From a virus, in the IMG/VR virus record IMGVR_UViG_3300023176_001117, positions 1 through 23,107 of that record: a stretch of 23,107 nt of DNA; one strand, written 5' to 3'. The translations under genes and the position numbers were made by a program. The notes under the pieces were generated by a model. The model was not told the DNA's origin. It did no database searches and saw only the letters and a program-made list of their open reading frames with translations. Positions 8,601-22,430 of the stretch are shown piece after piece. The number at the start of each line of letters is the position of its first letter. Position 1 is the stretch's first letter.

Positions 8601-9254
8601 GAAACCCTTGGACCTGTAGCTATAGGCTCAACAGTGACACTAGTTAACAACAATGGCGGTACAGGATACATACTCGGCAACACTACAGTTACAGCAGTTA
8701 ATATTCGAAACAACGATGTAAGAATTAGATTGAGTCAGAACTGGATTCAATGGATTGGTCAAGGTTCTACTTTTAGATTTAGTGTAGGGGCAGACTTAAC
8801 AAACAGAAACTTTGCATTCCTAACTAAAGCAAGTGTTGATTCAGCAGGTATAGCCAACGGTACTGCTGTTACTAGCGGCGGCTCTGTGTCGTTTCCTGCT
8901 AGTACACTTGTTTCTAGTATCACTGCGTATGAACACGGTACTGTTGATTACTATAGGATTACATTTAACAATAACTTTAACGGAACACTAGTACAAGGCA
9001 CAGGAACAATCGAATTTGAGTTTGTTCAACCGCCTTATGCACAACCAGGAGAAACTGTATTCTCGTTCATTGCGGTACCAGGTGAAAGATCGACTGTGGA
9101 CTTTAGCGAATTGAAAGAACTTACAAATACCACATTAGGTGGTAGAGGAACATTCCCAAATGGTCCAGATGTTCTTGCAATTAACGTGTATAAGGTTTCG
9201 GGTGCAGCTACAAATGCAAACCTTATTCTAAGATGGGGTGAAGCGCAGGCTTAA
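2649..9254 (+). CDS. giant repeat-built virion structural / adhesion protein (2201 aa)
   Basis: 2201 residues, no signal peptide, a typical very large marine T4-like phage structural protein. In order: an N-terminal helical region with three KCxRDxxY modules (Cys54, Cys190, Cys349); a beta-rich middle; five tandem repeats of 87-89 residues starting at residues 847, 935, 1024, 1111 and 1199; three scattered His-Gly beta modules (His637, His1313, His1456); and a conserved-looking C-terminal region. That last region includes an FIYIDNEIISYS segment, ILNPQNYPLNPSDVGWSG and a terminal INVYKVSG...LILRWGEAQA. The C-terminal part has fewer repeats and looks more constrained. Only 2 bases separate it from the preceding fibre gene, and no Shine-Dalgarno is visible before its ATG, so translation may be coupled. 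Its stop overlaps the stop of convergent gmhB. A receptor-binding or tail-fibre role is inferred from architecture and position. Confidence 0.8.
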   Translation: MAKKQIKNYVFKPGIGSNDYVYPDAYSLLSSNRDFIISEATQYIAQEVIDATKCQRDIGYIIDGVAADAVLGTSYNAYFLGLAEYNSLDISKTVIRTIERTKSEIQAIPEVLSEATFNARIGSSIDEILNIMQNGRDAANPVTYTIPGGVAPDRQAAHTKIIENLNFMAAEVNAWVDVNYPLHDHDVDKCTRDVKYALLAAAYDVLYQGNSASYDSAKFFNNYAAAGNTGITAEHQAQTVAAYRHLQTIISDVVQGISVSPSTGNSTPQVTAGLTANSATGTEVSNLIDIVADVVENGTGALPGIRTAPTITLSTAGEQTAYNQILTDKTDIIDAVTWSPTYTYNQEKCERDMGYVVDAYLYDLRYGGNHKLLNTIKYYWEEDVAQVDGNRIPEIDTHNFIGDLILDYIFTNTSWANVGLIPQTVDVSKTTESGAITKITSLVGSTVAVITNGLSSMPAEEETGVGYVKIQGKYQSNTLLLITNTTKNEVIYNFSNSDLGASVTIKDYGDDDDFVKYLQTTDGVTTIELVYNTSTHSATDDIQIFVEEQEVRTRPYDFGTDAIERMRIAPPLSMLDADFEYGLQPTKWSAIATMRGYPSVYEIPGTDTSVSSVVTDASTGTNGVGQSLITVTTAGAHGFDAGTPITIKALENSVSGAARAEGSFVIITVPSSNTFTYYAKAKVGLTSGEVLSTTYTQLRQAGFYTGAAIGKPTFTVISNGYNGTATTELITASGSNKIAFSGDVPEIGAPLTHPSLNTGTQVTGVAGSGGTVVTPTVVGSYGAGVSSIEVASAAGIVPNLSIDRGDGQAIHVASVNGTTINFDGTTTSPIVGNYELYQGVVGVIQQGVGTNATFDVTNTGGVYSVALNTAGTGYQIGDRLTIAGAFLEGDSPTNDIKITVQTVGGSGEILTFTFTGAGFTGTGTISGVSPNVNGGIGADAIIDITYTNNVYSASVATLDTSVDYVVQDRLKITGDVLGGVTPTNDVILVITGVGVNGEITGITASGTAPDASVDYTNVSFSTTGAGVNAQVDVSRIGTIYAVNIPTPGTGYVVNDTITVAGNILGGATPANDVTINVDAVDGVGGITAWSESGVAVNTANYPNQAPTNIVGSGAEFSIDIASSTYTANVTSGGLDYGVGQTFTVLGTDLYGSTTANDLTIEIVSVDVAGTITSVSASGTAVSGSGTFNNSTATNEFALGNGATFDIIRSNNSYTAAVALAGQDYQIGNRILILGSQLDGVDGVNDLLLRVATIGASNSIDSITQDAATGVSGDSVPFISTITISDLSTASIGIGQNITFTALATLEVTFDNAHGLVPGNTFIVDINSGDGVNNHSLASGAFLATVIPDTNKLRYVARAVGNIDTSADSISGVVYPRPDSFFIHRPYDGGVQLGTGGPQHGAQAIRQSKKYIRYQSGKGIMYTTGALFAPSYDLKSVTSNGTEVGSVITVETDDNDHGVQVGGVIRLLGIETPGYNSGNETASPPTFDYEVVNVLDERTFNVLAKRRLGSTNAKLGFSAQMSVVSWHGATVRSGIFDDQNGIFWEYDGTNLSVNQRTGTKQLAGTVSIDVDNNLVVGTNTRFRDQVVAGDRFIIKGMTHVVSHVIDQTTLTVTPDFRGVSNVTAAKANLVSDKKVKQENFNLDRLDGTGPSGYNVDIAKMQMIGIQYSWYGAGFIDFMARGSDGNFVFAHRMRNSNINTEAFMRSGNLPVRYEVTNEGPPGKLVEAMDATQTSLVLEDTSFFPETGFIYIDNEIISYSAKNDTTNTLSGLQRAATLTNFQAGASRDYQAGAAAIHSSGTGVVLISNTITPLISHWGSAFLTDGGFDEDRGYIFSYAESGVEVTTTKQTAFMIRLAPSVSNAIVGDLGERELLNRAQLLLQGLEITSDGVDQSNNSITGGIVVEGILNPQNYPLNPSDVGWSGLSSLAQGGQPSFAQVAAGGSVLWSTGQAATTAQATAQATTNVDLTSIAGGWYSSEVRVSVSEYETLGPVAIGSTVTLVNNNGGTGYILGNTTVTAVNIRNNDVRIRLSQNWIQWIGQGSTFRFSVGADLTNRNFAFLTKASVDSAGIANGTAVTSGGSVSFPASTLVSSITAYEHGTVDYYRITFNNNFNGTLVQGTGTIEFEFVQPPYAQPGETVFSFIAVPGERSTVDFSELKELTNTTLGGRGTFPNGPDVLAINVYKVSGAATNANLILRWGEAQA
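2799..3800 (+). repeat. three KCxRDxxY helical modules in the giant structural protein
   Basis: Diverged protein-level repeat inside the 2649-9254 gene. The cores are KCQRDIGYIIDG (Cys codon at 2808), KCTRDVKYALLAAAYD (3216) and KCERDMGYVVDAYLYD (3693). Each is followed by a loop with Gly-Asn or similar and then a further helix. Spacing is 136 and then 159 residues. Confidence 0.75.
5187..6458 (+). repeat. five tandem beta repeats of about 88 residues
   Basis: Diverged in-frame repeats beginning at 5187, 5451, 5718, 5979 and 6243 (periods 88, 89, 87 and 88 codons). Each has the pattern G-x-G-A-x-(F/V)-D-I, then (G)-x-x-Y-x-x-G/N-D-x-(L/I)-x-(I/V)-x-G, then a G-(G)-x-(T/S)-x-x-N-D-(V/L/I) turn and a final (G)-x-I-x-x-(I/V) strand. 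Nucleotide identity between copies looks low, so they are old protein repeats and not recent duplications. Confidence 0.85.
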
Positions 9255-9265
9255 TGCGCTTCATC
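9237..9265. terminator. hairpin spanning overlapping convergent stop codons (possible bidirectional terminator)
   Basis: A perfect 9-bp inverted repeat, TGAAGCGCA (9239-9247) and TGCGCTTCA (9255-9263), with a 7-base loop. It can extend by G-U and G-C pairs to 9237/9265. A short TTT follows on the plus strand. It sits exactly where the giant structural gene and gmhB converge, with their stop codons in the loop. The U tract is weak, so activity as an intrinsic terminator is uncertain. Confidence 0.5.
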
Positions 9266-9820
9266 TTTAAGCCACTGGCTAAATGAATACAAATCATCGA
9301 AGATAATTGTTTTATCTTTTAGTTGTTGGTATTTAGATTCTTCTAATTTTTTTTCAGTTATTTTACCGTATCCTGTTCTAACTAAAACAGGCTTAACGTC
9401 AAACCTTGATGCAAATTCAAGGTCGCTTATTTTGTCTCCAACATAGTATCCTTTGTAAAATGATATTAAATAATCTCTTTGTGCTTGTAAAAACATACCT
9501 ATGTTTGGTTTTCTAAAGTTGTCAAATTCGTCACTTCCGGTACTATACAAGAGTCCATCTAGTTTACACCCAGTTTCATCAAACAACAGTTTTTCTAAAT
9601 ACTGGTGTACAGTATGAACACTAAAGTCGTCCATATGACCTTTACTAACACCTGCTTGATTAGTAAGAACAATTGTAGCATAACCTAAGTCTTTAATTTC
9701 TTTTATGGCTTCTAAACTTCTAGGAATGGGTTTAAACTGCTCTTTTTTAGAAATATAAGTTCCTGTATCTTCATTAATTGTTCCGTCTCTATCTAAACCA
9801 ATGACTATTCTTTTATCCAC
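9251..9820 (-). CDS. gmhB: D-glycero-D-manno-heptose 1,7-bisphosphate 7-phosphatase (HAD family)
   Basis: HAD-superfamily phosphatase that removes the 7-phosphate of heptose bisphosphate in the ADP-heptose pathway. Counting from the start used here (189 aa; the family is about 190): motif I LDRDGT with Asp10 and Asp12, motif II LTNQAGVSKG (Thr53-Asn54), motif III RKPNIGM (Lys104), and motif IV YVGDKISD (Asp129, Asp133). The start is the GTG at 9820, since a GGAG lies 9 bases upstream and the protein then begins just before the first HAD strand. The frame extends to another GTG at 9862, but that would add an unusual 14-residue leader and a 50-base overlap. With the 9820 start it overlaps the cupin gene by 8 bases. 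The zinc-binding Cys/His loop found in many GmhB proteins before RKP is absent. It is the last gene of the operon. A related histidinol-phosphate phosphatase role is less likely given its neighbours. Confidence 0.85.
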   Translation of the reverse strand: MDKRIVIGLDRDGTINEDTGTYISKKEQFKPIPRSLEAIKEIKDLGYATIVLTNQAGVSKGHMDDFSVHTVHQYLEKLLFDETGCKLDGLLYSTGSDEFDNFRKPNIGMFLQAQRDYLISFYKGYYVGDKISDLEFASRFDVKPVLVRTGYGKITEKKLEESKYQQLKDKTIIFDDLYSFSQWLKDEAH

Positions 9821-10199
9821 TTTGACTATCTCCAGGTATAATTCTAAAATTATCTTCAACACTGTCTGCTGTACTTACTTCAGTAATACTAGAATTTTCT
9901 TCAAGTGCTTCTAGTTGATGAGGTTGTAATGGAGGATTATGCCATGTATCACCTTCTTTTAATTCAGCCTCCATAAGTGTTGCAGTATTTGTATCAATCC
10001 AACGCAATTTAAATCGTCCATTGTTAACAAACCATGTTTCATCTTTTTCTCGATGAAAGTGCATACTAAACTTTGATCCTATATTTTTAAAGACCATAAT
10101 TTTACCACAATACTTGTCGTTAGTTGCCCAGATTAATTCATAACCCCAACCCTTTTGTACAACACCAGATAATCTTTCAGTTTGGTTAGACGTTTGCAT
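9813..10199 (-). CDS. cupin, phosphomannose-isomerase-like sugar isomerase candidate
   Basis: A single-domain cupin of 128 residues. Cupin motif 1 is visible as GSKFSMHFHREKDETWFVNNG, with metal ligands His47, His49 and Glu54. Motif 2 is GDTWHNPPLQPHQLEALEE, with His94. The leading KGWGYELIW and trailing ITEVSTADSVEDNFRI segments resemble the C-terminal cupin of type II mannose-6-phosphate isomerases. GAGG precedes the ATG at a spacing of 9 bases. It overlaps hldD by 14 bases and gmhB by 8 and lies between these two heptose enzymes. The family assignment is firm; the substrate is not shown. Phosphomannose isomerase and GmhA catalyse the same kind of C1-C2 ketose-aldose isomerisation, so it could stand in for GmhA, or it could modify a nucleotide sugar. 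Confidence 0.8.
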   Translation of the reverse strand: MQTSNQTERLSGVVQKGWGYELIWATNDKYCGKIMVFKNIGSKFSMHFHREKDETWFVNNGRFKLRWIDTNTATLMEAELKEGDTWHNPPLQPHQLEALEENSSITEVSTADSVEDNFRIIPGDSQSG

Positions 10200-11013
10200 T
10201 TATATAATCCTCTACTTTAATCCAATCGATATCAATTACAGAATTTAACTTGTCTAAATTTGCACAAGTAAAGTCTTGATATTGTGTTTTTAAATTTTCT
10301 GGAATTGGCACATATCTAATTTCTGCATTGTATTTGTTTGCAATTTTGTTTGCAATTTGATAAAAACTAACACTATTGCCAGTACCAACATTCCAAATCC
10401 CCGATTCATCGACACCGAGCATTTTTTCATGTACTTTAGCAACGTCCTCTACGCAAACAAAATCACGCTTGTATTTTTCACTATTTTCAAATAATGTAAT
10501 AAAACCGTTTTCTTTTGCCTGTTGTGTAAATTTAGTTACCGGTGATGCTTGATCACCTTTGTGATCTTCTCTAGGACCATATACATTAAAATATCTAAAA
10601 CCTTGTACAAGTATTTCAAAATCTTGACTATGTTGTGATATAAATCTATCAAACAAATATTTTGACCAAGCATACGGTGACTGCGGCAATAGCGGACCGT
10701 CTTCTTTAAAATGTGTTGGCCTATAGCCGCCATAAACGCTTGCACTTGAAGCATATTGAAAATTAGTCCCCATCATATCACATGCCTGTACCAACCTCAC
10801 GCTGTATTCAAAGTTTTGTTCTAATATTTTATCTACATTAGTTTCAGTTGTACTACTAATAGCACCTAAATGTATTACCCAATCATAACTAGACGGATCT
10901 GGTATTGTGTTAGGAACATATTCCCATCCTTCAACTTCATGACCTTGCTCTTGTAAATACAATGCAAGATTTGATCCGATAAATCCTTTATATCCTGTAA
11001 CTAATATTCTCAT
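10186..11013 (-). CDS. hldD: ADP-L-glycero-D-manno-heptose 6-epimerase
   Basis: Short-chain dehydrogenase/epimerase of 275 residues that converts ADP-D-glycero- to ADP-L-glycero-D-manno-heptose. The Rossmann glycine motif is GYKGFIGS (Gly7, Gly10, Gly13), followed by HLGAISSTTE. The active site has ASSASVYGG (Ser89-Tyr94) and YAWSK (Tyr114, Lys118). The segment RYFNVYGPREDHKGDQASP (Arg140 to Pro158, including Lys152) is characteristic of HldD rather than general UDP-sugar epimerases. It is shorter than bacterial HldD (about 310 aa), mainly in loops. Its ATG overlaps the hldE stop by 4 bases (ATGA), and its 3' end overlaps the cupin gene. This is the second gene of the ADP-heptose operon. Confidence 0.9.
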   Translation of the reverse strand: MRILVTGYKGFIGSNLALYLQEQGHEVEGWEYVPNTIPDPSSYDWVIHLGAISSTTETNVDKILEQNFEYSVRLVQACDMMGTNFQYASSASVYGGYRPTHFKEDGPLLPQSPYAWSKYLFDRFISQHSQDFEILVQGFRYFNVYGPREDHKGDQASPVTKFTQQAKENGFITLFENSEKYKRDFVCVEDVAKVHEKMLGVDESGIWNVGTGNSVSFYQIANKIANKYNAEIRYVPIPENLKTQYQDFTCANLDKLNSVIDIDWIKVEDYINANV

Positions 11014-12149
11014 TTGCTCTTCTCTATAATACTTGTTGTACTAAATCCTTTTACTGTAGGAATAATTTTTACAGGCACAATGTCATGCCCAACTACTTGT
11101 TCTACAGTGTAATCTCCACCCTTGACAATCATGTCAGGATTTAGTTTTTTAATTAGTTCGTATGGTGTATCTTCGTCAAAGACAACAACTTCATCTACCC
11201 AAGACAACAATTCTAATTGTTCTTTGCGTGTTTGTTCTGTGTTTATAGGACGACTATTTCCTTTAAGACGTTTTGTACTAGCATCACTATTAATACCTAC
11301 TACAAGTTTTTCTCCTAACGCACGAGCTTCTTTTAATAAAGTAAAATGACCTCTATGTAATATATCAAATACACCGTTTGTAAAAATAACACGTTCTTGT
11401 AAATCTTCAGGTTTAACTACATATGTGCCAACATGCTTAACTGATTCTGTTGCACCTTTTGCAGCTAGTTTAAGACAGTCGCTGTAACTTTTTCCTCGAC
11501 TCATTCCGTAAACAAATGTAGCAAGAAAACAATCACCTGCACCTGTAACATCATTTACTTCGACAGGATCTGGTTTAATTTTGTAATATATTCCGTCTAT
11601 GTCTGCAATTATATCTTCGCCTGCAGAAGTAATAATTAAATTATTTTTCCATGCTGCAAATTCAAATGTATGATATTCTTTTTTGTTAGGTTTAACTAAC
11701 CAAGCACCTTGATAAAAACTATAATGACGTTTAGGATCTACAATAATTTTACAATCATATTTGTTGATGTGTTCTATAATTTGTTGTGAATATTCTAGTA
11801 CACCTTTATTATAATCACTCAGTATTACAACATCATACTCACTAAAATTTTTCTCTTTTATAGTATTAAGTGCTTCTTTACTATTAGTTTCAAAATCTTG
11901 ATCTATACGTGTAACGTAATGACCATCACACAGCACACGAGTCTTAATACATTTAGGCGACGATAAGTCTAACATTTCTACATCTACACCTAAGTTCAAT
12001 AGATTAAGATATACGAGGTATGCACCACCCCATTGCTCCCAACTATCTTGCTGACTAACAACAGGCACAGGAGCTTCAGGACTCAATCGTGTTGATGTTC
12101 CTGTGATATATTTGTCAATAATAATGTCGCCAATAACTAAGACTTTCAT
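11010..12149 (-). CDS. hldE: bifunctional heptose 7-phosphate kinase / heptose 1-phosphate adenylyltransferase
   Basis: 379 residues with two domains. The PfkB-type kinase (about 1-245) begins GDIIIDKYITGTSTRLSPEAPVPVV and has IIVDPK near 135-140 and DVTGAGDCF with catalytic Asp206. The nucleotidyltransferase (about 253-379) has TNGVFDILHRGH (HxGH at 265-268), KRLKGNSRP and a final STTSII. This is the RfaE/HldE order. The kinase domain is shorter than in E. coli HldE (477 aa in total). The sugar-binding GGAxNVAxN segment is altered here to GGAYLVYLN (41-49), losing the first Asn. It is the first gene of the minus-strand heptose operon, behind a near-consensus sigma-70 promoter only 5 bases upstream, and no Shine-Dalgarno is visible. 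ADP-heptose synthesis is the confident role; whether the kinase half is fully active is open. Confidence 0.9.
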   Translation of the reverse strand: MKVLVIGDIIIDKYITGTSTRLSPEAPVPVVSQQDSWEQWGGAYLVYLNLLNLGVDVEMLDLSSPKCIKTRVLCDGHYVTRIDQDFETNSKEALNTIKEKNFSEYDVVILSDYNKGVLEYSQQIIEHINKYDCKIIVDPKRHYSFYQGAWLVKPNKKEYHTFEFAAWKNNLIITSAGEDIIADIDGIYYKIKPDPVEVNDVTGAGDCFLATFVYGMSRGKSYSDCLKLAAKGATESVKHVGTYVVKPEDLQERVIFTNGVFDILHRGHFTLLKEARALGEKLVVGINSDASTKRLKGNSRPINTEQTRKEQLELLSWVDEVVVFDEDTPYELIKKLNPDMIVKGGDYTVEQVVGHDIVPVKIIPTVKGFSTTSIIEKSK

Positions 12150-12618: not shown

Positions 12619-14046
12619 TTATCCGTAGAGGTCAATTCTCCATGTGCCAACTGGATAATCACCTTCAACGCTCATTAACCAGGATCCATTTGAATATCTA
12701 TACTGTATACCTGTGTTTAAGTTTGTTGTATAAGTAGTTTCGGTAATTTCACTAGCATTGAATATAATGTTCCATTTAGAACCATCCCATTCTACAATAT
12801 CATTACCACTAGCAATTAGACCAGAACCATCATTATTTCGCCATGCCTTAGATACTTCTTGGGCATCTTCATTCCCTACATCATCTAATAGCAATAGTCT
12901 AACACCCGAAGCACGAACTCCTTCGGGGTTAAATCTTGTAGGATCTATAATATAATCTATACTTGTTCTGTCTCCTAATGAACTAGTAATAATACTATCA
13001 GAAGGGAAACTGTCTGTGTCCCAATTAATTTGTAATGCTTTTGGATCAAATGGATTTACACTAATTGTTCCGGTAACAGTATTATTTGAATCGTCAATGC
13101 TAGTTAAATAAATTCTACTAACATCTGCAAGATAATTTCCTGGAAGTGCTTCAAATATTTCATCCCAATTTATTCCACCTACAATACCATTTGCTATAAG
13201 TTTAGCAGTAAATCCTTCTATGTATACACCGTAACCTTTGTAGTTAACATTGGCCATTTGATCTGTTAAATCAGTTGCAGGACGTCTACCAAACTCATTT
13301 TCAGTAATACCTGATTGTGTATAATCATCATATGCATTAACTTCTGGTGTACTTACTCCTGTTTCTATGGTACCTCTATTTTCATCAAACATGCTAGTAA
13401 TAACATTTGTAATAACACCCATCTTTTTAACTTTAACAGGTGGACTAATATATATTGGTACACTAAATGTTAGAGTAGCAATATCAATTTCTGAGTCTAC
13501 ACCAACAGGAACACTTCTATTAGACCATTGTACACTTTCTAAGTTAACAACTGTAATACTAGTCCAATCAATAAAGTTATCAGTGGTTTGTATTTCTAAA
13601 CTTGGATTAAACAGTACTAATATTTGCTCTAGAATTTGTAACTTTTGATCTGTGTTTGAAGTCCATATATCTACATTTGCTCGCATCATATACGGAGTTG
13701 GTATTAGTCTTTCAACTGTATAATTTGGACCTTGGAAATTAAGGTATTCTTGGTTTAAATCATCGTATGCACGTTCTCTAATATTAACGGAACGTGTGTA
13801 AGATGCATCTGTTAAGCGATCTTTGTCTAATTCAAGTGCAGTAATATACACTGACATACGTGGTGCGCTTGGTAATTTGTTTTCAGAATTTTCTCTAATA
13901 ATATTAGCAACTTGTCTAGTTAAGTCGCCATACATTACAGGTACTTCTTTAGTTTTTCCTTTCCCGTCCTTGACCGGAAAATTACTAACAATACGCATTA
14001 ATTGGGTTATATATCGTCTTACTTGTCCGTCGTAAAAATGCTGCAT
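12619..14046 (-). CDS. 15: gp15-like proximal tail sheath stabilisation / tail terminator protein
   Basis: 475 residues. The first 230 or so match the layout of T4 gp15: an N-terminal FYDGQVRRYITQLMRIVSNF, then EVPVMYGDLTRQ, LPSAPRMSVYITALELD, and then YTVERLIPTPYMMRANVDIWT. QILEQILVLFNPSLEIQ, a VNLESV strand and VGVDSEIDIATLTFSVPIYISPP follow. T4 gp15 (272 aa) caps the tail tube and sheath and joins the tail to the neck. The extra 200-plus C-terminal residues include a loop-rich region and two short Trp-containing modules (IVEWDGSKWNIIF and YRYSNGSWLMSVEG). The stop of gp14 and the start of this gene overlap by 1 base, so translation is likely coupled. It is on the opposite strand from gp13 and gp18. 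Confidence in the T4 equivalent is high for the N-terminal domain. Confidence 0.8.
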   Translation of the reverse strand: MQHFYDGQVRRYITQLMRIVSNFPVKDGKGKTKEVPVMYGDLTRQVANIIRENSENKLPSAPRMSVYITALELDKDRLTDASYTRSVNIRERAYDDLNQEYLNFQGPNYTVERLIPTPYMMRANVDIWTSNTDQKLQILEQILVLFNPSLEIQTTDNFIDWTSITVVNLESVQWSNRSVPVGVDSEIDIATLTFSVPIYISPPVKVKKMGVITNVITSMFDENRGTIETGVSTPEVNAYDDYTQSGITENEFGRRPATDLTDQMANVNYKGYGVYIEGFTAKLIANGIVGGINWDEIFEALPGNYLADVSRIYLTSIDDSNNTVTGTISVNPFDPKALQINWDTDSFPSDSIITSSLGDRTSIDYIIDPTRFNPEGVRASGVRLLLLDDVGNEDAQEVSKAWRNNDGSGLIASGNDIVEWDGSKWNIIFNASEITETTYTTNLNTGIQYRYSNGSWLMSVEGDYPVGTWRIDLYG

Positions 14047-15209
14047 TAGTTATCTGCCTTTGGTTTAAGTGCTTTAGATAAACTTTGTCTTTCTTCAACA
14101 ACTTCACCGTTAATTTTATTAGTATTAGTATTATTAATAAAGCTAGTTTTCTGAGTATATCTATCAAGTGTATTACTTAGTGTCATACGTGCATCGTCTG
14201 TTACTTTCACCCACCTAGTTCCATCATATGTAAACATTCTGTTTGGGAAAAAGTCTGTACGCAAATAGTAATCTCCTCTAATTGGATTGCGAGGAAATTG
14301 TATGCCAAAACCGTAAGGTGCACCATTAGGAGTAGTTCCATCTCCATAATTCAACAAGTATCCTGTATATCCTTCTCGTTCAGGACGATTTGTAACTTCG
14401 TCAGCAGTGTTACTAATATTGCTTGCTTCTAAGTCTTCTTGGTCTGCTGTTTTAAGAGCAATAGTACCATCATCATTAGTTGCTACTGTATAATAATGAC
14501 TAGTCTCAAATCCTGACTTGGGTGAATCTGCTTCTGCTTGTGCAACTACAGCATTTGAAATTTGCATTTCTTTTTCATATGTTGAAAGTACATCACGGAG
14601 CGTAGTATCTGATCCTTCAGTTGCTGGAAGGTCGAGTATTTCTGCGTATTCTTGGCCGTCGTATATTTGCTTTAATTTAAGTCTGTATAAGTGCGGATAC
14701 CAAGTATGACTAAATCCTTCTGCTGCACGATTAACATCTTCAACAACATAAAAACGTTTTAGTGCCATGTCATAATCATTTAGTGCATACTCGTCTTTTA
14801 AGTGAGGAAGTTCTATAACATCACCACTCATAATTTTTCTACCTAATGTTTTGACACTACTTCTAATATGTATAGTCATAAACAGTGTATCATTGCTTAA
14901 AAATAAACCAAACTGACTTAGATCAAAATCAATGTCTTGGACATTATATATTGCTCGCATAGTATAGATGTCTGGATCATACTTGCGATCTCTGTTTTCA
15001 AGAAATAACAAATCTTGTATATTAGTTTCTTTTACAGCATCATATGTTGGCTGATCAGCAGTTCCTTCACCTTCTGCAGGATTTTCAGGACCTATGTATT
15101 TGTGTATGTTAATATCAGTGCCGCCAACCTGAAACATTTCCCCAATTTGTCTATCTAGGAATTCGTAATCGTTACCGCGCTCTGGTTTATATAAACTTAA
15201 TCTTGGCAT
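14046..15209 (-). CDS. 14: gp14-like neck protein
   Basis: 387 residues from the start used here. The N-terminus MPRLSLYKPERGNDYEFLDR and the GEMFQVGGTDINIHKYIGP segment are characteristic of gp14 neck proteins of marine T4-like phages. So are DLLFLENRDRKYDPDIYTM and VQDIDFDLSQFGLFLSNDTL. Neck proteins gp13 and gp14 close the portal after packaging and receive the tail. Near the C-terminus is a GDYYLRTDFFPNRMFTYDGTRW module. The frame is open upstream to 15272, but the added residues are hydrophobic and unlike the family, and they run antisense into gp13. The start at 15209 fits both the family and the promoter (15215 is a possible alternative). There is no Shine-Dalgarno; the late promoter box ends 5 bases before the ATG. 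The protein is longer than T4 gp14 (256 aa). Confidence 0.8.
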   Translation of the reverse strand: MPRLSLYKPERGNDYEFLDRQIGEMFQVGGTDINIHKYIGPENPAEGEGTADQPTYDAVKETNIQDLLFLENRDRKYDPDIYTMRAIYNVQDIDFDLSQFGLFLSNDTLFMTIHIRSSVKTLGRKIMSGDVIELPHLKDEYALNDYDMALKRFYVVEDVNRAAEGFSHTWYPHLYRLKLKQIYDGQEYAEILDLPATEGSDTTLRDVLSTYEKEMQISNAVVAQAEADSPKSGFETSHYYTVATNDDGTIALKTADQEDLEASNISNTADEVTNRPEREGYTGYLLNYGDGTTPNGAPYGFGIQFPRNPIRGDYYLRTDFFPNRMFTYDGTRWVKVTDDARMTLSNTLDRYTQKTSFINNTNTNKINGEVVEERQSLSKALKPKADN

Positions 15210-15214
15210 ATACA

Positions 15215-15222
15215 TATTTATC
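15215..15222 (-). promoter_or_regulatory. late promoter box GATAAATA for gp14 (minus strand)
   Basis: TATTTATC on the plus strand, so GATAAATA reading toward gp14. It ends 5 bases before the gp14 ATG at 15209, and with T4 spacing (box at about -13 to -6) the start site falls on the A of the ATG. It forms one arm of an inverted repeat with the gp13 promoter. Confidence 0.65.
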
Positions 15223-15226
15223 GTTA

Positions 15227-15234
15227 GATAAATA
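15227..15234 (+). promoter_or_regulatory. late promoter box GATAAATA for gp13 (plus strand)
   Basis: Exact GATAAATA, 19 bases before the gp13 ATG, followed by a CGGAG Shine-Dalgarno at 15241-15245. Only GTTA separates it from the divergent box at 15215-15222. Confidence 0.75.
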
Positions 15235-15253
15235 CTACGACGGAGAAACCTAA

Positions 15254-16012
15254 ATGGCAAATATATCAACACAGAAACAAGAAATATACGATTATGTTTA
15301 CGCTATGCTCGGCGGAGGCATGGTTGATGTAGAACTTGATCCTGTACACTACGAAACTGCTTTAAACAAGGCACTTACAAGATTTAGACAACGCAGTGAT
15401 AATAGTGTTGAAGAATCTTATATGTTTATGCCAACCGTTATTGATCAAAACGAATATACACTACCAAAAGAAGTAGTAGAAGTTCGTAAATTATTTCGCA
15501 GATCAATCGGTTCACGCAGCGGCGGCGGCGATGGCGGCACATTGTTTGAACCGTTCAACCTTGCTTATACTAATACGTATTTGTTAGCAAGTTCAAATTT
15601 AGGTGGACTAGCAACATACGATTTCTTTAGCCAATATCAAGAACTTGTAGGACGTATGTTTGGCTCGTTTATTGAATTCAAATGGAATACTACAAGTAAA
15701 AAATTAACTCTACTACAGCGTCCTAGAGCAGAAGAAAATTTATTATTGTACTGTTACAACTACCGTCCAGATGAACAACTATTAGAAGATTATCTAGCAG
15801 TACAATGGATTAAAGATTATACACTTGCTAGTTGTAAGTTTATGCTAGGTGAAGCACGAAGCAAGTTTGCTACTATTGCTGGTCCACAAGGCGGATCGAC
15901 ACTTAACGGTGATGCACTAAAAGCCGAAGCACAAGCTGAAATGGAAAAGTTAGAAGCAGAAGTATCTCAAGCAGTTGCAGGCGGCACAGGATACGGCTTT
16001 TTAATTGGTTGA
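15254..16012 (+). CDS. 13: probable neck / head-completion protein (gp13-like)
   Basis: 252 residues. The start has Shine-Dalgarno CGGAG at a good distance and a late promoter box. Distinctive segments are YDYVYAMLGGGMVDVELDP, NKALTRFRQRSDNSVEESY, NEYTLPKEVVEVRKLFRRSIG, FFSQYQELVGRMFG, a WIKDYTLASCKFMLGEARSKF helix (a few residues shortened here) and IAGPQGGSTLNG. I recognise this as a conserved marine T4-like phage structural protein usually placed next to gp14 and given as neck protein gp13; T4 gp13 is 309 aa. The C-terminal third is a charged Glu/Ala-rich helix, ending GTGYGFLIG. It is divergent from gp14, sharing a 20-bp promoter region. The structural role is confident; the exact gp13 equivalence is moderately so. 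Confidence 0.65.
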   Translation: MANISTQKQEIYDYVYAMLGGGMVDVELDPVHYETALNKALTRFRQRSDNSVEESYMFMPTVIDQNEYTLPKEVVEVRKLFRRSIGSRSGGGDGGTLFEPFNLAYTNTYLLASSNLGGLATYDFFSQYQELVGRMFGSFIEFKWNTTSKKLTLLQRPRAEENLLLYCYNYRPDEQLLEDYLAVQWIKDYTLASCKFMLGEARSKFATIAGPQGGSTLNGDALKAEAQAEMEKLEAEVSQAVAGGTGYGFLIG

Positions 16013-16060: not shown

Positions 16061-16630
16061 ATGTTACCTAAACTACTTGTAGTTGGACATGGCAGACACG
16101 GCAAAGACACTGTTTGTGAATTATTAGAAAAATACGGCTACACATTTCAATCTAGTTCTAAGTTCTGTTCAGAACTTTTTATATTCAATGATTTAAAAGA
16201 CAAGTACGGTTATGCAGACGAAGAAGAGTGTTATGCAGATCGTCATAATCATCGCACAGAGTGGTACAACATGATACACGATTACTGTAAAGATGATCTA
16301 GCACGTCTTGGGCGTAACTTGTTTGCACAAAACAATATCTATTGCGGTTTGCGCAACAAGCGAGAATTCTTTGCAATGCAAAATGAAGAAATCTTTGACT
16401 ATGCTATTTGGGTAGATCGTACAGATCATTTGCCTACTGAAGATCCTAGCTCAATGAGTATAGAACAATGGATGTGTGATTACACTATTGATAACAATGG
16501 TTCGCTAGAACGTTTAGAAAGAAATGTAGATATTCTTATTAAGACAATATTTAAAAATCAGGGCGTAAATCACCCTGCTTCCACCGTCCGCCGGCTTTCT
16601 GAATTAATCGCTGACAGTTTGCACAAATAG
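16061..16630 (+). CDS. P-loop deoxynucleoside monophosphate kinase-like protein
   Basis: 189 residues. The Walker A motif is GHGRHGKDT (Gly9 to Thr17), in the position and form of T4 gp1-type dNMP kinases, which feed dNTP synthesis. Further family-like segments are YTFQSSSKF, a DRHNHRTEWYNMI segment (61-72), DLARLGRNLFAQ, IYCGLRNKREF (93-103), FDYAIWVDRTDHLP and DYTIDNNGSLERLERNVDIL. Marine T4-like phages commonly carry this short form; T4 gp1 is longer (241 aa). The natural end of the family is near residue 165. The last 26 residues (about 164-189) are read antisense to the C-terminus of the convergent HNH gene, so the C-terminus looks replaced. It has its own sigma-70 promoter and GGAG Shine-Dalgarno. 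The function as a nucleotide kinase is likely; the substrate range is unknown. Confidence 0.75.
   Translation: MLPKLLVVGHGRHGKDTVCELLEKYGYTFQSSSKFCSELFIFNDLKDKYGYADEEECYADRHNHRTEWYNMIHDYCKDDLARLGRNLFAQNNIYCGLRNKREFFAMQNEEIFDYAIWVDRTDHLPTEDPSSMSIEQWMCDYTIDNNGSLERLERNVDILIKTIFKNQGVNHPASTVRRLSELIADSLHK
16551..16577 (-). terminator. intrinsic terminator inside the HNH C-terminal codons
   Basis: Read on the minus strand: CAGGGTG, loop ATTTA, CGCCCTG (a 7-bp stem with one mismatch), followed at once by ATTTTTAA, which includes the HNH stop. The stem therefore encodes the last residues of the protein. It fits a minus-strand terminator; it is not followed by T residues on the plus strand. Confidence 0.5.
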
Positions 16631-16886
16631 TTTTTAAATTATTAGGACGGCAGTTGTTTAAATCACCGTCTATATGAAACACATTAAATTGTTCTTCATG
16701 CTTTGATTTAAAACCGCACTTTTCACATTGAGTTTTCTTTTCGTAACCTCGTTGCCGCCATTTAGGTATACCGTGTCCCGCACCATTGCGTAAACAGGTT
16801 TCACAGAGCTTACGATAATAAGTTCTGTTTCCTTTTTTATAATTTATAGCAGCAGGACGTTCACCACAAACACATAAAGGTCTCAT
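16551..16886 (-). CDS. HNH-type zinc-ribbon homing-like endonuclease
   Basis: 111 residues. Zinc ligands are visible as C5xC7, C28xxC31, C54xxC57 and C88xxC91. The nuclease core is FNVFHIDGDLNNCRPNNLKTICANCQRL, with catalytic His71 and Asn83. The last His of the HNH triad, expected after C88xxC91, is Gln92. Small proteins of this kind are common in marine T4-like phages and may act as free-standing homing nucleases or have roles in recombination or packaging. GAGG precedes the ATG by 10 bases. It is convergent with the kinase gene and overlaps its 3' end by 80 bp. It lies alone on the minus strand between gp13/kinase and gp18, which suggests a mobile insertion. Its target is unknown. Confidence 0.8.
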   Translation of the reverse strand: MRPLCVCGERPAAINYKKGNRTYYRKLCETCLRNGAGHGIPKWRQRGYEKKTQCEKCGFKSKHEEQFNVFHIDGDLNNCRPNNLKTICANCQRLIQKAGGRWKQGDLRPDF

Positions 16887-17006: not shown

Positions 17007-20000
17007 ATGGCATTAGTATCACCAGGCGTAGAAGTCAAAGTAATTGACGAATCATTCTACACCCCAGCAGCAGCTGGTACTGTACCTATGATCTTTGTGG
17101 CATCAGCTGAAAATAAAACTTCAAGCAGTGGCGCAGGAACAGCGGTAGGTACGTTAAAGGCAAACGCTGGTAAACCTTACTTAATCACCAGCCAACGTGA
17201 GCTTGGTGAAACATTTGGCGATCCATTATTTTATTCCGATAATAACGGAAATATGATACATGGGGGCGAATTAAACGAATACGGTCTACAAACTGCATAC
17301 TCATTACTTGGCGTAACAAACCGTGTATATGTATGTAGAGCAGATCTTGATTTAAGCAAACTACAAGCAAGTGCAACTGCACCAGGCGGCGAACCATCTG
17401 ATGGCGCATACTGGTTTGATACACAAGTAACCGATTTTGGTGTACTTGAGTGGAACGGCGCAGCACTAACTACTTCGGGCGGGCAGAGCTTTAGTTCTGT
17501 TACACCAATTGTTATTACCGAAGTAAACGATGTAACTGGTTCAGCTACATCACCAGGAGCACCAAAAGAAGCAGTAGGTGCTATTGGAGATTATGCAGTA
17601 GTTGCTATTACTACATTAAACACACTATGGTATAAAAATAGTGCAGGTACTTGGGTAGGAGTAGGCGACGATGATTGGCGTTCTAGTTGGGCAGCAGTTA
17701 AAGGAACAGCAGCTAATCCAGCATTAACCAATGGCCACTCAATTACACTAGACGGATCTGCACCAATTGCAATTAACGGCACAGGTGTAGCAGATATAGC
17801 ATCTGCTATTAATGGCGCAGGCGTAACAGGTGTAAGTGCAGCAGCAGTTGACGGAAGATTAGAAATTTATACTTCTAATGACTCTGTCGTTGTTGCAAAC
17901 AGTACAGGCACATTGTTAACTGACTTAGGAATTATTGCAGGTACATATGCATCACCAACAGTTGCAATTGCACCACATACATTAATTCCTGAATTTAAGT
18001 CAGGAGACACTACACCACGTCCAACTGGTTCTATTTGGTTAAAAACTACAGAACCAAATGGCGGTGCAAACTTCCGTATTAAAATTTATAATGGTGACAC
18101 ACAGTTATGGGATACTGTTACTGCTCCGATTTATCAGTCTAATGAACAAGCAATTTATAACTTAGACAAAGCAGGTGGCGGAGCAAATCTAATAACAGGC
18201 GATGTTTATGTTAGAGCAAATGTTGAACAAGATGCACAAAAGCTAGGTACATGGAAAATATTCCGTCGTAAAACTAACGGTGCAACTATTATTACTTCAC
18301 CAAAAGTTACTAGCGGAACATTACAAGCTGCAAGCGATGTTGATTTTACTATTGACGAAACTAAAGTAAACAGCATGATTTACACAGGAAGTCCTAAAAC
18401 TGTAACATTTACAGCTACAGGTACATCAACGGACGCAGATGCACTAGCAGGCGCAATTAATGCAGCTGGTTTAACTAACGTCCTTGCAAGTGTTGATGGA
18501 CAAAATCGTGTTGTAATTAGACATAAACTAGGCGGTGAAATTAAAATTGTAGATACAAACGGATCATTTACTGAAATGGGTTTTGTTCCATACGATTCAG
18601 CAAATCCACAAGGTACAACGCCAAATTTATATTATGCACCAGGAACTACATCAGGAGATAATCCTGCACAGTATGTTGCAAGTAACTGGCAAGTCCTAAC
18701 TTACACAGCAAGCGAAGATGAGCCACTAGAGCTTACAGCAGACGGCGAACTATGGTATAGTTCAGTTGTAGATGAAGTTGATATCATGATTCACAATGGT
18801 GATGATTGGGTAGGTTATAAAAACTTTAGTTTAGATTATAACAATACCAACGATAGAGGACCACAAGTGACTGCAACAGCTCCAACTGTTCAAGACAACG
18901 GTGATCCGTTAGTTGACGGAGATCTTTGGGTTGATACTTCGGATTTAGAAAACTTCCCAACAGTACATCGTTACAACGGTACATTAGCAAGTTGGATTGA
19001 AATTGATTCATCAGATCAAACTACTGAAAATGGTATTTTGTTTGCAGATGCACGTTGGAGTGATGCAGGATCAAACTCAGCAGCAGCTGATATTGACGAA
19101 CTGTTAACAAGTAACTATAAAGATCCAGATGCTCCAGATCCGGCACTATATCCGAAAGGTATGTTGCTATGGAATCTAAGACGTTCAGGATTTAATGTTA
19201 AGCGTTTTGAGCGTAACTACATTGATGTTGATGGTGATAACATTAGATTCCCTGTAACATCAGTTCTAGGTTCAGATGTTTATGACTTTGTATCAGGCGA
19301 TGATCAATCAATGGATGGATATTATCCACACCGTTGGGTTACTGATTCAGGCAACAATGAAGATGGATCAGGCACATTTGGACGCCATGCGCAACGTAAG
19401 TCAGTAATACAAGCACTACAAGCCGAAGTTAACGGTAACTTAGATGTACGTGATGAAGAATCGCGTCAATTTAACTTGATTGCTACACCAGGTTATCCAG
19501 AACTAATTGGTGAAATGATCACACTAAACTATGATAGACGCTTAACAGCATTTGTTGTAGGTGATTCACCAGCTAGACTAACACCAGATGCAACTTCATT
19601 AAATGAATGGGCGTCTAACGTAAGACTAGCAGTTGAAGATAATGACGATGGCGCAGTTAGTTTCGACGAGTACATGGGCATGTATTATCCATGGGGATTC
19701 ACAAGTGACAATGCAGGTAACAACATTGTTGTTCCTCCAAGTCATATGGCACTACGTACACTAGTACTAAATGACCAAGTGGCATTCCCCTGGTTTGCAC
19801 CAGCAGGTACAAGACGCGGCGGTGTTACAAACGCAACAGCATCTGGTTATATTAACTCAGAAGGCGAATTTGTTTCAGTAGCACTAAACACTGGACAACG
19901 TGATACACTATACACTAACAACATTAACCCAATCACATTTATTAGTGGTGCAGGTTTAGTTGTATTTGGTCAGAAGACTCGCGCAAGAAATGCTTCTGCA

Positions 20001-20324
20001 CTAGATCGTATTAACGTAGCACGTCTAGTTGTTTACATGCGTGGCCAGCTAGAGAAATTGGCAAGACCATATCTATTTGAGCCAAACGATAAGATCACAC
20101 GTGATCAAATCAAAGCGGCAGCTGATGCGTTCTGTTTAGAACTAGTTAGCTTAAGAGCTTTATATGACTACCTAGTTGTATGTGATGAATCAAACAACAC
20201 ACCAGCTAGAATAGACCGTAACGAGCTATATCTAGATATTGCTATTGAGCCAGTTAAAGCAATTGAATTTATTTACATTCCATTGCGTATTAAGAACACT
20301 GGTGAGATTGCTGCACTAGGCTAA
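17007..20324 (+). CDS. 18: tail sheath protein gp18 with large inserted domains
   Basis: 1105 residues; T4 gp18 has 659. The N-terminus MALVSPGVEVKVIDESFYTP corresponds to T4's LLSPGIELKE start. The C-terminal third is clear sheath: LTPDATSLNEWASNVRLAVE, NPITFISGAGLVVFGQKT, a DRINVARLVVYMRGQLEK stretch, YLFEPNDKITRDQI, and YDYLVVCDESNNTPARIDRN with a closing IEFIYIPLRI. Between residues of about 130 and 680 is a large insert. It holds GxxWxxT...NG modules at residues 133, 341, 580 and 638 and two segments like flagellin-IN repeats (about 233-320 and 431-535). The insert would project from the sheath surface. The sheath contracts around the gp19 tube at infection. AGGAG lies 7 bases before the ATG. 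It is followed by a hairpin and the gp19 promoter. Confidence 0.92.
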   Translation: MALVSPGVEVKVIDESFYTPAAAGTVPMIFVASAENKTSSSGAGTAVGTLKANAGKPYLITSQRELGETFGDPLFYSDNNGNMIHGGELNEYGLQTAYSLLGVTNRVYVCRADLDLSKLQASATAPGGEPSDGAYWFDTQVTDFGVLEWNGAALTTSGGQSFSSVTPIVITEVNDVTGSATSPGAPKEAVGAIGDYAVVAITTLNTLWYKNSAGTWVGVGDDDWRSSWAAVKGTAANPALTNGHSITLDGSAPIAINGTGVADIASAINGAGVTGVSAAAVDGRLEIYTSNDSVVVANSTGTLLTDLGIIAGTYASPTVAIAPHTLIPEFKSGDTTPRPTGSIWLKTTEPNGGANFRIKIYNGDTQLWDTVTAPIYQSNEQAIYNLDKAGGGANLITGDVYVRANVEQDAQKLGTWKIFRRKTNGATIITSPKVTSGTLQAASDVDFTIDETKVNSMIYTGSPKTVTFTATGTSTDADALAGAINAAGLTNVLASVDGQNRVVIRHKLGGEIKIVDTNGSFTEMGFVPYDSANPQGTTPNLYYAPGTTSGDNPAQYVASNWQVLTYTASEDEPLELTADGELWYSSVVDEVDIMIHNGDDWVGYKNFSLDYNNTNDRGPQVTATAPTVQDNGDPLVDGDLWVDTSDLENFPTVHRYNGTLASWIEIDSSDQTTENGILFADARWSDAGSNSAAADIDELLTSNYKDPDAPDPALYPKGMLLWNLRRSGFNVKRFERNYIDVDGDNIRFPVTSVLGSDVYDFVSGDDQSMDGYYPHRWVTDSGNNEDGSGTFGRHAQRKSVIQALQAEVNGNLDVRDEESRQFNLIATPGYPELIGEMITLNYDRRLTAFVVGDSPARLTPDATSLNEWASNVRLAVEDNDDGAVSFDEYMGMYYPWGFTSDNAGNNIVVPPSHMALRTLVLNDQVAFPWFAPAGTRRGGVTNATASGYINSEGEFVSVALNTGQRDTLYTNNINPITFISGAGLVVFGQKTRARNASALDRINVARLVVYMRGQLEKLARPYLFEPNDKITRDQIKAAADAFCLELVSLRALYDYLVVCDESNNTPARIDRNELYLDIAIEPVKAIEFIYIPLRIKNTGEIAALG

Positions 20325-20390: not shown

Positions 20391-21056
20391 ATGCCAATTA
20401 CAACACTACAGAACATATCAATCCCAACAGAGGGATCAGGTTCTAACAGTTCGCTATTAATGCCAAAACTGCAATACCGCTTTAGAGTATTGCTCGACGG
20501 CTTTGGTACAACTGGTGGACCAGACGGTGTAAGAGAAATTTCAAGACAAGTTGTAGACGTAACTCGTCCAAACTTGAGTTTTGAACAAATTACTATTGAT
20601 GCATACAACAGTAGATCATATCTAGCTGGTAAGCATACATGGGAACCAATTACATTAACACTAAGAGAAGATGCAAACAACAACGTACAAAAAATTGTTG
20701 GTCAGCAACTTCAAAGACAGTTTGACTTCTTTGAGCAAGCAAGTGCTGTTGCTGGTGGTACATATAAATTCCAAACTAGAATTGAAATACTAGACGGTGG
20801 AAACGGTAATGCTGGCGGTGCGCAAGTACTAGACAGATTCCATTTAGTAGGATGCTACGTTGAATCAGCAAACTACAATACACTAGCATATGCAACAAAC
20901 GATCCTGTAACTGTAGCACTAACTATTCGTTACGACAACGCTATCCAATACGGAGCAGACGGCGATGGCGAAAACGGTATTGGTGAAATTACTACTAGAG
21001 CAACACAAGGCGCTTCAGGTGGTACACAAGTTACTGGTGGTACTAACTTCGTTTAA
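20391..21056 (+). CDS. 19: tail tube protein gp19
   Basis: 221 residues, the usual size for marine T4-like gp19 (T4: 163). Typical features are LLMPKLQYRFRVLLDGFG near the start, EISRQVVDVTRPNLSFEQIT, YNSRSYLAGKHTWEPITLTL, then a QLQRQFDFFEQASA helix. VLDRFHLVGCYVESANYNTL and DPVTVALTIRYDNAIQY follow. It polymerises into the inner tube of the contractile tail through which DNA passes. The C-terminal 30 residues are Gly/Thr rich and probably flexible. It has its own late promoter and an AGGAG Shine-Dalgarno and is followed by a strong intrinsic terminator. This fits the high separate expression expected of tube protein. Confidence 0.92.
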   Translation: MPITTLQNISIPTEGSGSNSSLLMPKLQYRFRVLLDGFGTTGGPDGVREISRQVVDVTRPNLSFEQITIDAYNSRSYLAGKHTWEPITLTLREDANNNVQKIVGQQLQRQFDFFEQASAVAGGTYKFQTRIEILDGGNGNAGGAQVLDRFHLVGCYVESANYNTLAYATNDPVTVALTIRYDNAIQYGADGDGENGIGEITTRATQGASGGTQVTGGTNFV

Positions 21057-21139: not shown

Positions 21140-21147
21140 GATAAATA
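21140..21147 (+). promoter_or_regulatory. late promoter box GATAAATA placed 5 bases before an ATG
   Basis: Exact GATAAATA ending 5 bases before the ATG at 21153, the same geometry as the gp14 promoter. With T4-type spacing, transcription would begin at the ATG itself. There is no room for a Shine-Dalgarno. Confidence 0.7.
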
Positions 21148-21152
21148 TTACT

Positions 21153-22430
21153 ATGAGTATAGTAGATCCGTATTTAATTAACAGTAATAGTGACTTGCAT
21201 TTGCGAGATGCAAGGCATGCACATCAGTTATACACACAACATAACTTTGCTTTAGCTCCAAAGATGAAGTTCTTATACCATGTGGTATTTGAATACAGTG
21301 CTCCGCTTGGCTTTATTCCTAATAGTGACCAGTTTCGAAAAGAGTTAGGTGTTCTTGCAAATGAAGTATCGTTGCCTTCTTATAGACTTGATGTTGATAC
21401 TAAACATCAATATAATAGAAAAAAGAATGTTCAAACTGGTATTAACTATGATGAAGTAACATTTGGATTTATTGATGATAATACCGGTATAACTAGAGCG
21501 TTAATGGAAGAATATTATAGATTTTATTTTAGAGATGGCGGCAAACATGAAAACGGATCACCGCTTGATTTTGATGCTAGAGATAAGTTTAAACTAAATG
21601 TTCCTCGTTACGGAATGGATAATCTTGATGGTAAAGAAGTACCATTTTTTAAAACTATAAGATTATACCAACTTGCTAGACACAAATGGGTGTCATATAC
21701 TCTTGTAAATCCGTTAGTAACATCATTTAAACACGATGATTTGTCATATCAAGATGGTGCAGATATTACTATGAATACTATGAATATAGCATATGAAGCT
21801 GTAATGTATGATTCAGGAGATATCAATCCAGGTGGTAATCCGCCAGGATTTACAAGCGAAGAAACACGTTATGATAATGTGTTTAGTCCATTACAAACTA
21901 GTGGAGGTGGTGGAGGTGGCGGCGGAGGCCAGGGCGCCGGCGGCGGATTGCCGTCTATTATTAAGGGGCTAACCAATCCGTTTCTTAATGAAACGCTACC
22001 AAGTATTTTTAGTAATACAAGTTCTCGTGCTGGAGATCCTTTAGGAACTTTAAATAATATAGTTAATTTTAGTCGCAATCCTACTATAGGAGGATTGCAG
22101 CAATTAGTATTTCCTAAAACAAATACACGATCAAATAGTACGTTAACAAACTTATTAGACAGATCGGTTAGAAATTTAGATGGCGATACAATTAGAGGAA
22201 CTTTAACTTCTAATAGGTCTGCATTAAATTCTACAGTAAGAAGATCACTAGCAACAGGAGCATATAATTCAGATTGGAATAGTTCAAATTTTGGTCAGTT
22301 TAATAATTTGCCTAGAACTGCACAATCTGCAATAGAAAACGAAATTGTAGAACGAGCATCTAACGGTGACAAAAAAATACAGCAAATTGCAAGCCAAGTA
22401 ATAAGTTCAATTAGAGGTAGAGTAGTATAA
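21153..22430 (+). CDS. tail-tube-fold structural protein (gp19/gp48/gp54-like)
   Basis: 425 residues in two parts. Residues 1-230 have the tube-protein pattern: KMKFLYHVVFEYS, LANEVSLPSYRLDVDTK, YNRKKNVQTGINYDEVTFGF, and a MEEYYRFYFRDGG helix. IRLYQLARHKWVSYTLVNP and MNTMNIAYEAVMYDSGDI follow. A Gly-rich linker (nine Gly at 251-259, then QGAGGG) leads to a C-terminal 160 residues rich in Asn, Ser and Arg. The fold points to a tail-tube initiator or cap at the baseplate (gp48 or gp54 class) or a tube-terminal protein; I cannot decide which. It follows the gp19 terminator with its own late promoter box. It overlaps the next gene by 1 base (TAATG). Confidence 0.65.
   Translation: MSIVDPYLINSNSDLHLRDARHAHQLYTQHNFALAPKMKFLYHVVFEYSAPLGFIPNSDQFRKELGVLANEVSLPSYRLDVDTKHQYNRKKNVQTGINYDEVTFGFIDDNTGITRALMEEYYRFYFRDGGKHENGSPLDFDARDKFKLNVPRYGMDNLDGKEVPFFKTIRLYQLARHKWVSYTLVNPLVTSFKHDDLSYQDGADITMNTMNIAYEAVMYDSGDINPGGNPPGFTSEETRYDNVFSPLQTSGGGGGGGGGQGAGGGLPSIIKGLTNPFLNETLPSIFSNTSSRAGDPLGTLNNIVNFSRNPTIGGLQQLVFPKTNTRSNSTLTNLLDRSVRNLDGDTIRGTLTSNRSALNSTVRRSLATGAYNSDWNSSNFGQFNNLPRTAQSAIENEIVERASNGDKKIQQIASQVISSIRGRVV

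Follow-up and report, generated by a model that had tools for sequence, protein, structure and literature searches.

In silico analysis of a viral DNA stretch of 23,107 nt (positions 1 to 23,107 of IMG/VR record IMGVR_UViG_3300023176_001117; the whole stretch is referred to below as the window) revealed two divergent neck-region genes separated by an intergenic gap of 44 bp. On the minus strand lies a gp14-like gene encoding a neck/virion structural protein of 387 residues (14046–15209; phrog_11591), which adjoins the next gene, a gp15-type tail sheath stabiliser (12619–14046, minus strand; PF16724). On the plus strand lies the gene of a gp13-type head-tail adaptor (Ad2) neck protein of 252 residues (15254–16012). 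The two start codons, ATG at 15209 (minus strand) and ATG at 15254 (plus strand), agree in position and divergence with an earlier note on this DNA. The gap contains a 20-nt element, TATTTATCGTTAGATAAATA, at 15215–15234, which that note had read as a perfect 8-bp inverted repeat with a loop of four bases; the description is exact, the element being TATTTATC-GTTA-GATAAATA. Its left arm (15215–15222, minus strand) is the putative T4-type late promoter box GATAAATA of the gp14-like gene, its right arm (15227–15234, plus strand) is the corresponding box of gp13, and the spacer GTTA between the 8-mer arms (15223–15226) leaves 8 nt between the 6-mer cores.

The gp13 assignment follows from profile matches (phrog_211, E 2.3e-33; family profile against the T4 gp13 chain 9mkb, E=1.4e-15). 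The name gp14 is based on gene order, since the gp14-like gene and then the gp15-type PF16724 gene reproduce the 14-15 order of T4, and on a weak co-linear motif. The phrog_11591 family differs from the PHROGs of T4 gp14/Hc2 (679/460), alignment of the gp14-like profile with T4 gp14 by hhalign gave a probability of 1%, with motifs that are weak yet co-linear, profile comparison against the PDB gave no confirmation of a gp14 identity, and the AlphaFold2 model of the protein (pLDDT 41) is too poor for use. Of the two neck-gene labels given earlier, gp13 is upheld by profile match, and gp14 is upheld by synteny and not by sequence. Elsewhere in the window, the tail sheath protein (17007–20324) is unusually long, with 1105 residues and a flagellin-IN-like stretch, and its gene is preceded by a 111-residue open reading frame (16551–16886, minus strand), HNH endonuclease-like by eye, which overlaps the end of a dNMP-kinase-like gene. 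Host-like metabolic genes are located amid the virion genes at 193–1242 and 9251–12149; they comprise a tryptophan halogenase, phosphoheptose isomerase, cysteine dioxygenase, nucleotide-sugar epimerase and heptose kinase/adenylyltransferase.

The inverted repeat by itself is near chance; 0.63 perfect 8-bp repeats with a four-base loop are expected per shuffled window, and a further one occurs at 21051. The divergent pair of late boxes, in contrast, is beyond chance. Only 0.03 pairs of divergent ATAAATA boxes at most 40 bp apart are expected per window, and the chance of finding both in the 44-bp gap is about 9e-5, which rules out a chance inverted repeat as the full account. Of the six copies of GATAAATA in the window, two make up the element and the remaining four (1230, 1658, 20359 and 21140) all lie on the plus strand, directly upstream of the starts of open reading frames.

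The late promoters of T4 carry TATAAATA at -13 to -6. Compared with this box, GATAAATA matches at seven of eight bases on both strands, with G for T at the first position, and it fits a late box because the T at -13 is poorly conserved in T4 relatives (PMC1524935). Six of the seven ATAAATA boxes in the window stand 3–45 nt ahead of an ATG, and in a 267-kb relative (G001) 40 of 54 boxes precede an ATG, 39 of the 54 within this same range of distances. In the same relative, permuted heptamers are about 2.6 times as frequent as ATAAATA, as though the box were avoided outside promoters. The commonest sequence downstream of the plus-side box in relatives is CTATT, which we take to be a match to the extended T4 late consensus. 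A sigma factor of the gp55 family (phrog_12791, E 1e-75 to 1e-118) is encoded by four of the five largest relative contigs (G001, G002, G004 and G005) and by all three isolates searched (Atu_ph07, Phosso and PA5oct); this evidence comes from the genomes of relatives, the window itself being a 23-kb fragment. A search for the gp45 sliding clamp with one Pfam model (PF09116) gave no match in any record, controls likewise, and is hence uninformative. Judged from these features, the pair of divergent T4-type late promoters at 15215–15234 looks real.

Two scans of viral contigs yielded 158 sequences with both genes, the window included, of which 111 are distinct; these relatives, marine jumbo phages, are non-independent samples. 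The gp14-like and gp13 genes are divergent in 158/158 sequences, and none of the 111 distinct relatives lacks either box; the TAAATA core is kept in 100%, spacer and leaders being variable. Together with the sigma gene in relatives, this bears out the divergent late boxes that the earlier note had placed between gp14 and gp13. The box pair is also retained in MAG contigs at 54–60% identity. In the larger relatives, each genome has one such tight pair with two ATAAATA boxes. The length of the spacer, for which a comparison with related genomes had been proposed, is not kept; 2–21 nt separate the 6-mer cores, which rules out a fixed spacer as a need for exclusion. Among the 111 relatives the cores are 8-10 nt apart in 86 (9 nt in 56), 20–21 nt apart in twelve, 2–5 nt apart in nine, and 7, 15 or 18 nt apart in four. 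Of 53 distinct spacers of at least 7 nt, 40 fall at 7–10 and 11 at 20–21, with almost none between, and a tree of 100 relatives requires at least 18 changes of spacer class. The two modes, about 9 and 20–21 nt, differ by about one helical turn, a relation that is suggestive only, because some of the long spacers are alike and recombination in this region may play a part.

The position of the boxes has consequences for the predicted transcripts. By the T4 convention (box at -13 to -6), the +1 of gp13 is predicted at 15240 on the plus strand and is followed by a leader of 14 nt containing the Shine-Dalgarno sequence GGAG (15242–15245) ahead of the ATG; a Shine-Dalgarno-like sequence is found in 110/111 relatives. 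The same convention puts the +1 of the gp14-like gene on the A of its ATG (15209, minus strand), with AUG exactly at the predicted 5' end, and the gp14 mRNA is probably leaderless. In 88 of the 111 relatives the gap between box and gp14 start is 4–8 nt, and all of these have ATG (88/88) and none a Shine-Dalgarno sequence (0/88). In the other 23 the gap is 21–25 nt, the Shine-Dalgarno sequence is strong, and the first codon is ATC (17), ATT (5) or TTG (1). Fourteen of the 23 have no ATG, GTG or TTG in frame from the box through the first codon, eight have an in-frame ATG two codons earlier, only 1–2 bases past the Shine-Dalgarno sequence, and one has the TTG start. A structural gene would accordingly start with AUC or AUU in many relatives. 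Relatives with ATC or ATT as the first gp14 codon include L005, L007, L015, L018-L021, L047, L054, L116 and L120. The leader class of gp14 switches at least eight times on the tree of 100 relatives. Initiation on leaderless mRNAs requires AUG and is counteracted by IF3, a factor that likewise disfavours AUU and AUC starts (PMC4611024). These start patterns suggest that translation of gp14 is held at a low level. The contrast in translation between gp13 and gp14 is not universal, because gp13 itself looks leaderless in a distant clade (54–60% identity) and gp14 has a leader and ATG in Atu_ph07 and Phosso.

The arrangement predicted for gp14 recurs at single boxes. Among 119 single boxes before ATGs in eight contigs, the gap is 4–5 nt in 23, 3 or 6–14 nt in four and 15–45 nt in the rest, and the peak of ATGs at gap 5 is consistent with a +1 six nt after the box. 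In T4, 0/28 gaps between box and ATG are below 12 nt (Fisher p 0.008 versus the marine group). A second box of this kind in the window, GATAAATA-TTACT-ATG (21140–21155, plus strand), has its ATG at the predicted +1 and forms the start of a tail-tube-like gene (21153–22430). For about one fifth of the single late boxes of this phage group, sampled in the window and G001–G007, the ATG falls exactly at the predicted +1, and a class of leaderless late mRNAs is predicted from this; a start codon as the first base of the transcript would be a class of late mRNA not seen in T4.

As to the origin of the symmetry, most of it follows from the same box being present twice. One account, to which we give even odds, is that of two independent late promoters brought together only through the short intergenic gap, the symmetry having no extra function. 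Late boxes are near-identical everywhere, so that any divergent pair looks palindromic; looser divergent pairs also occur in relatives (e.g. at 251319 in G001) and a pair stands between genes 26 and 51 of T4, and the frequent changes of spacer class point the same way. Strict covariation of the arms, by which the palindrome would be kept perfect, is rejected, as identical 8-mer arms are found in 78/111 and identical 9-mer arms in 67/111 relatives, with many uncompensated changes. Two observations stand against mere juxtaposition. In the distinct pair elements, C precedes GATAAATA in 35/45 on the plus side and 42/47 on the minus side (78–89%), whereas it does so in 8/63 single boxes (p 5e-12 and 1e-16 against the pairs, calculated on non-independent rows), and the spacers cluster at 7–10 and 20–21 nt with a nearly empty gap between. 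A more elaborate reading, held tentatively and judged somewhat less probable than simple juxtaposition, combines a dedicated symmetric double promoter with a deliberately weak, IF3-sensitive gp14 start and, more widely, with about one fifth of the late mRNAs of these marine jumbo phages being made leaderless straight from T4-type promoters. In this reading the CG-extended boxes and the helical-turn spacer modes would belong to the double promoter, and gp14 would start either from a leaderless AUG or from AUC/AUU behind a strong Shine-Dalgarno sequence.

The dyad might instead be the binding site of a symmetric regulator acting on both promoters at once. In most relatives the inner C is present on both copies (CGATAAATA), giving the extended dyad TATTTATCG..CGATAAATA, and spacer modes that differ by roughly one turn of the helix would suit such a protein. 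However, the CG keeps with each box as the spacer lengthens and, because it moves in this way, looks like part of each of the two promoters rather than a separate dyad; moreover, a distant relative (L265) has CGATAAATA before gp14 although gp13 is not adjacent. We know of no regulator for the gp14/gp13 dyad, and consider this explanation improbable.

The earlier note had further proposed that two polymerases could hardly occupy both boxes at once, and that gp13 and gp14 may be kept in balance through mutual exclusion of initiation at a single element. The first part is a fair reading: with the predicted starts only 31 bp apart, simultaneous occupancy would be implausible, and core spacings of at most 21 nt in the 111 relatives would extend the exclusion throughout. 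The second part finds no support and is, if anything, slightly less credible than a regulator. Exclusion reduces both outputs without equalising them, as it offers no equalising feedback; the translation signals at gp13 and gp14 are strongly different; and the spacer length is variable. Equal amounts are moreover not what the neck of T4 calls for, with its twelve gp13 and six gp14 (PMC12270204), and T4 manages this 12:6 ratio with genes 13 and 14 on one strand and without such a back-to-back element. A ratio of gp13 to gp14 arising from unequal translation is more likely than one arising from exclusion. A DNA or RNA hairpin or terminator, to which the perfect 8-bp arms and four-base loop might point, is rejected as highly improbable, judging by the place of the element upstream of both predicted starts, hence in neither transcript, by an AT-rich stem lacking a T-run, and by spacers of 2–21 nt, incompatible with a fixed hairpin.

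The best explanation of the locus as a whole, to which we assign a probability of roughly 0.88, is a back-to-back pair of divergent T4-type late promoters, with a gp13:gp14 ratio more likely set by translation than by exclusion. Late in infection, host RNA polymerase with a phage gp55-type sigma factor would recognise GATAAATA on either strand. Rightward initiation near 15240 would produce the gp13 mRNA with its 14-nt Shine-Dalgarno leader; leftward initiation near 15209 would coincide with the first base of the gp14 start codon and yield a leaderless transcript covering gp14 and the following gp15-type gene. With starts about 31 bp apart, one open complex at a time would be likely, and the ratio of the two products would be set more by translation, gp14 being started weakly. 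On this evidence, T4-type late promoters may be placed back to back at a distance of about 30 bp between starts, and a broad range of jumbo phages may have retained this layout.

Compared to the late promoters of T4, which are served by gp55 together with gp33 and gp45, those described here share the TAAATA core, the place before late virion genes, the frequent CTATT after the box and, in relatives, the gp55-family sigma. The differences relate to the first position, which in the marine group is mostly G and not T, and to the ATG at +1 in about one fifth of cases, for which T4 has 0/28. The back-to-back arrangement is not unique, because a divergent late-box pair with similar spacing of the cores is present in T4. 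This pair, between genes 26 and 51 (NC_000866, 116441–116461), likewise consists of divergent back-to-back late boxes between virion-assembly genes, and its 9 nt between 6-mer cores equal the marine mode; the genes are other ones, however, both with Shine-Dalgarno leaders, and the CG-extended symmetry is absent. The literature searched contained no paper on the 26/51 pair or on divergent late promoters of T4. The rhizobial jumbo phages Atu_ph07 (Agrobacterium) and Phosso (Sinorhizobium) possess the same divergent genes (41–48% identity), likewise separated by a box pair, but their boxes are more degenerate (TATTTACCGTTAAATA; TATTTATGTGGATTTTCGCGTAAATA) and a leader precedes the ATG of their gp14-like gene. 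Finally, the predicted AUG-first gp14 mRNA of the short-gap class and the AUC/AUU starts of the leader class resemble the leaderless and IF3-discriminated starts described previously (PMC4611024). In contrast to those systems, a single gene appears to alternate here between the two modes among members of one phage group, with both modes tied to a late box.
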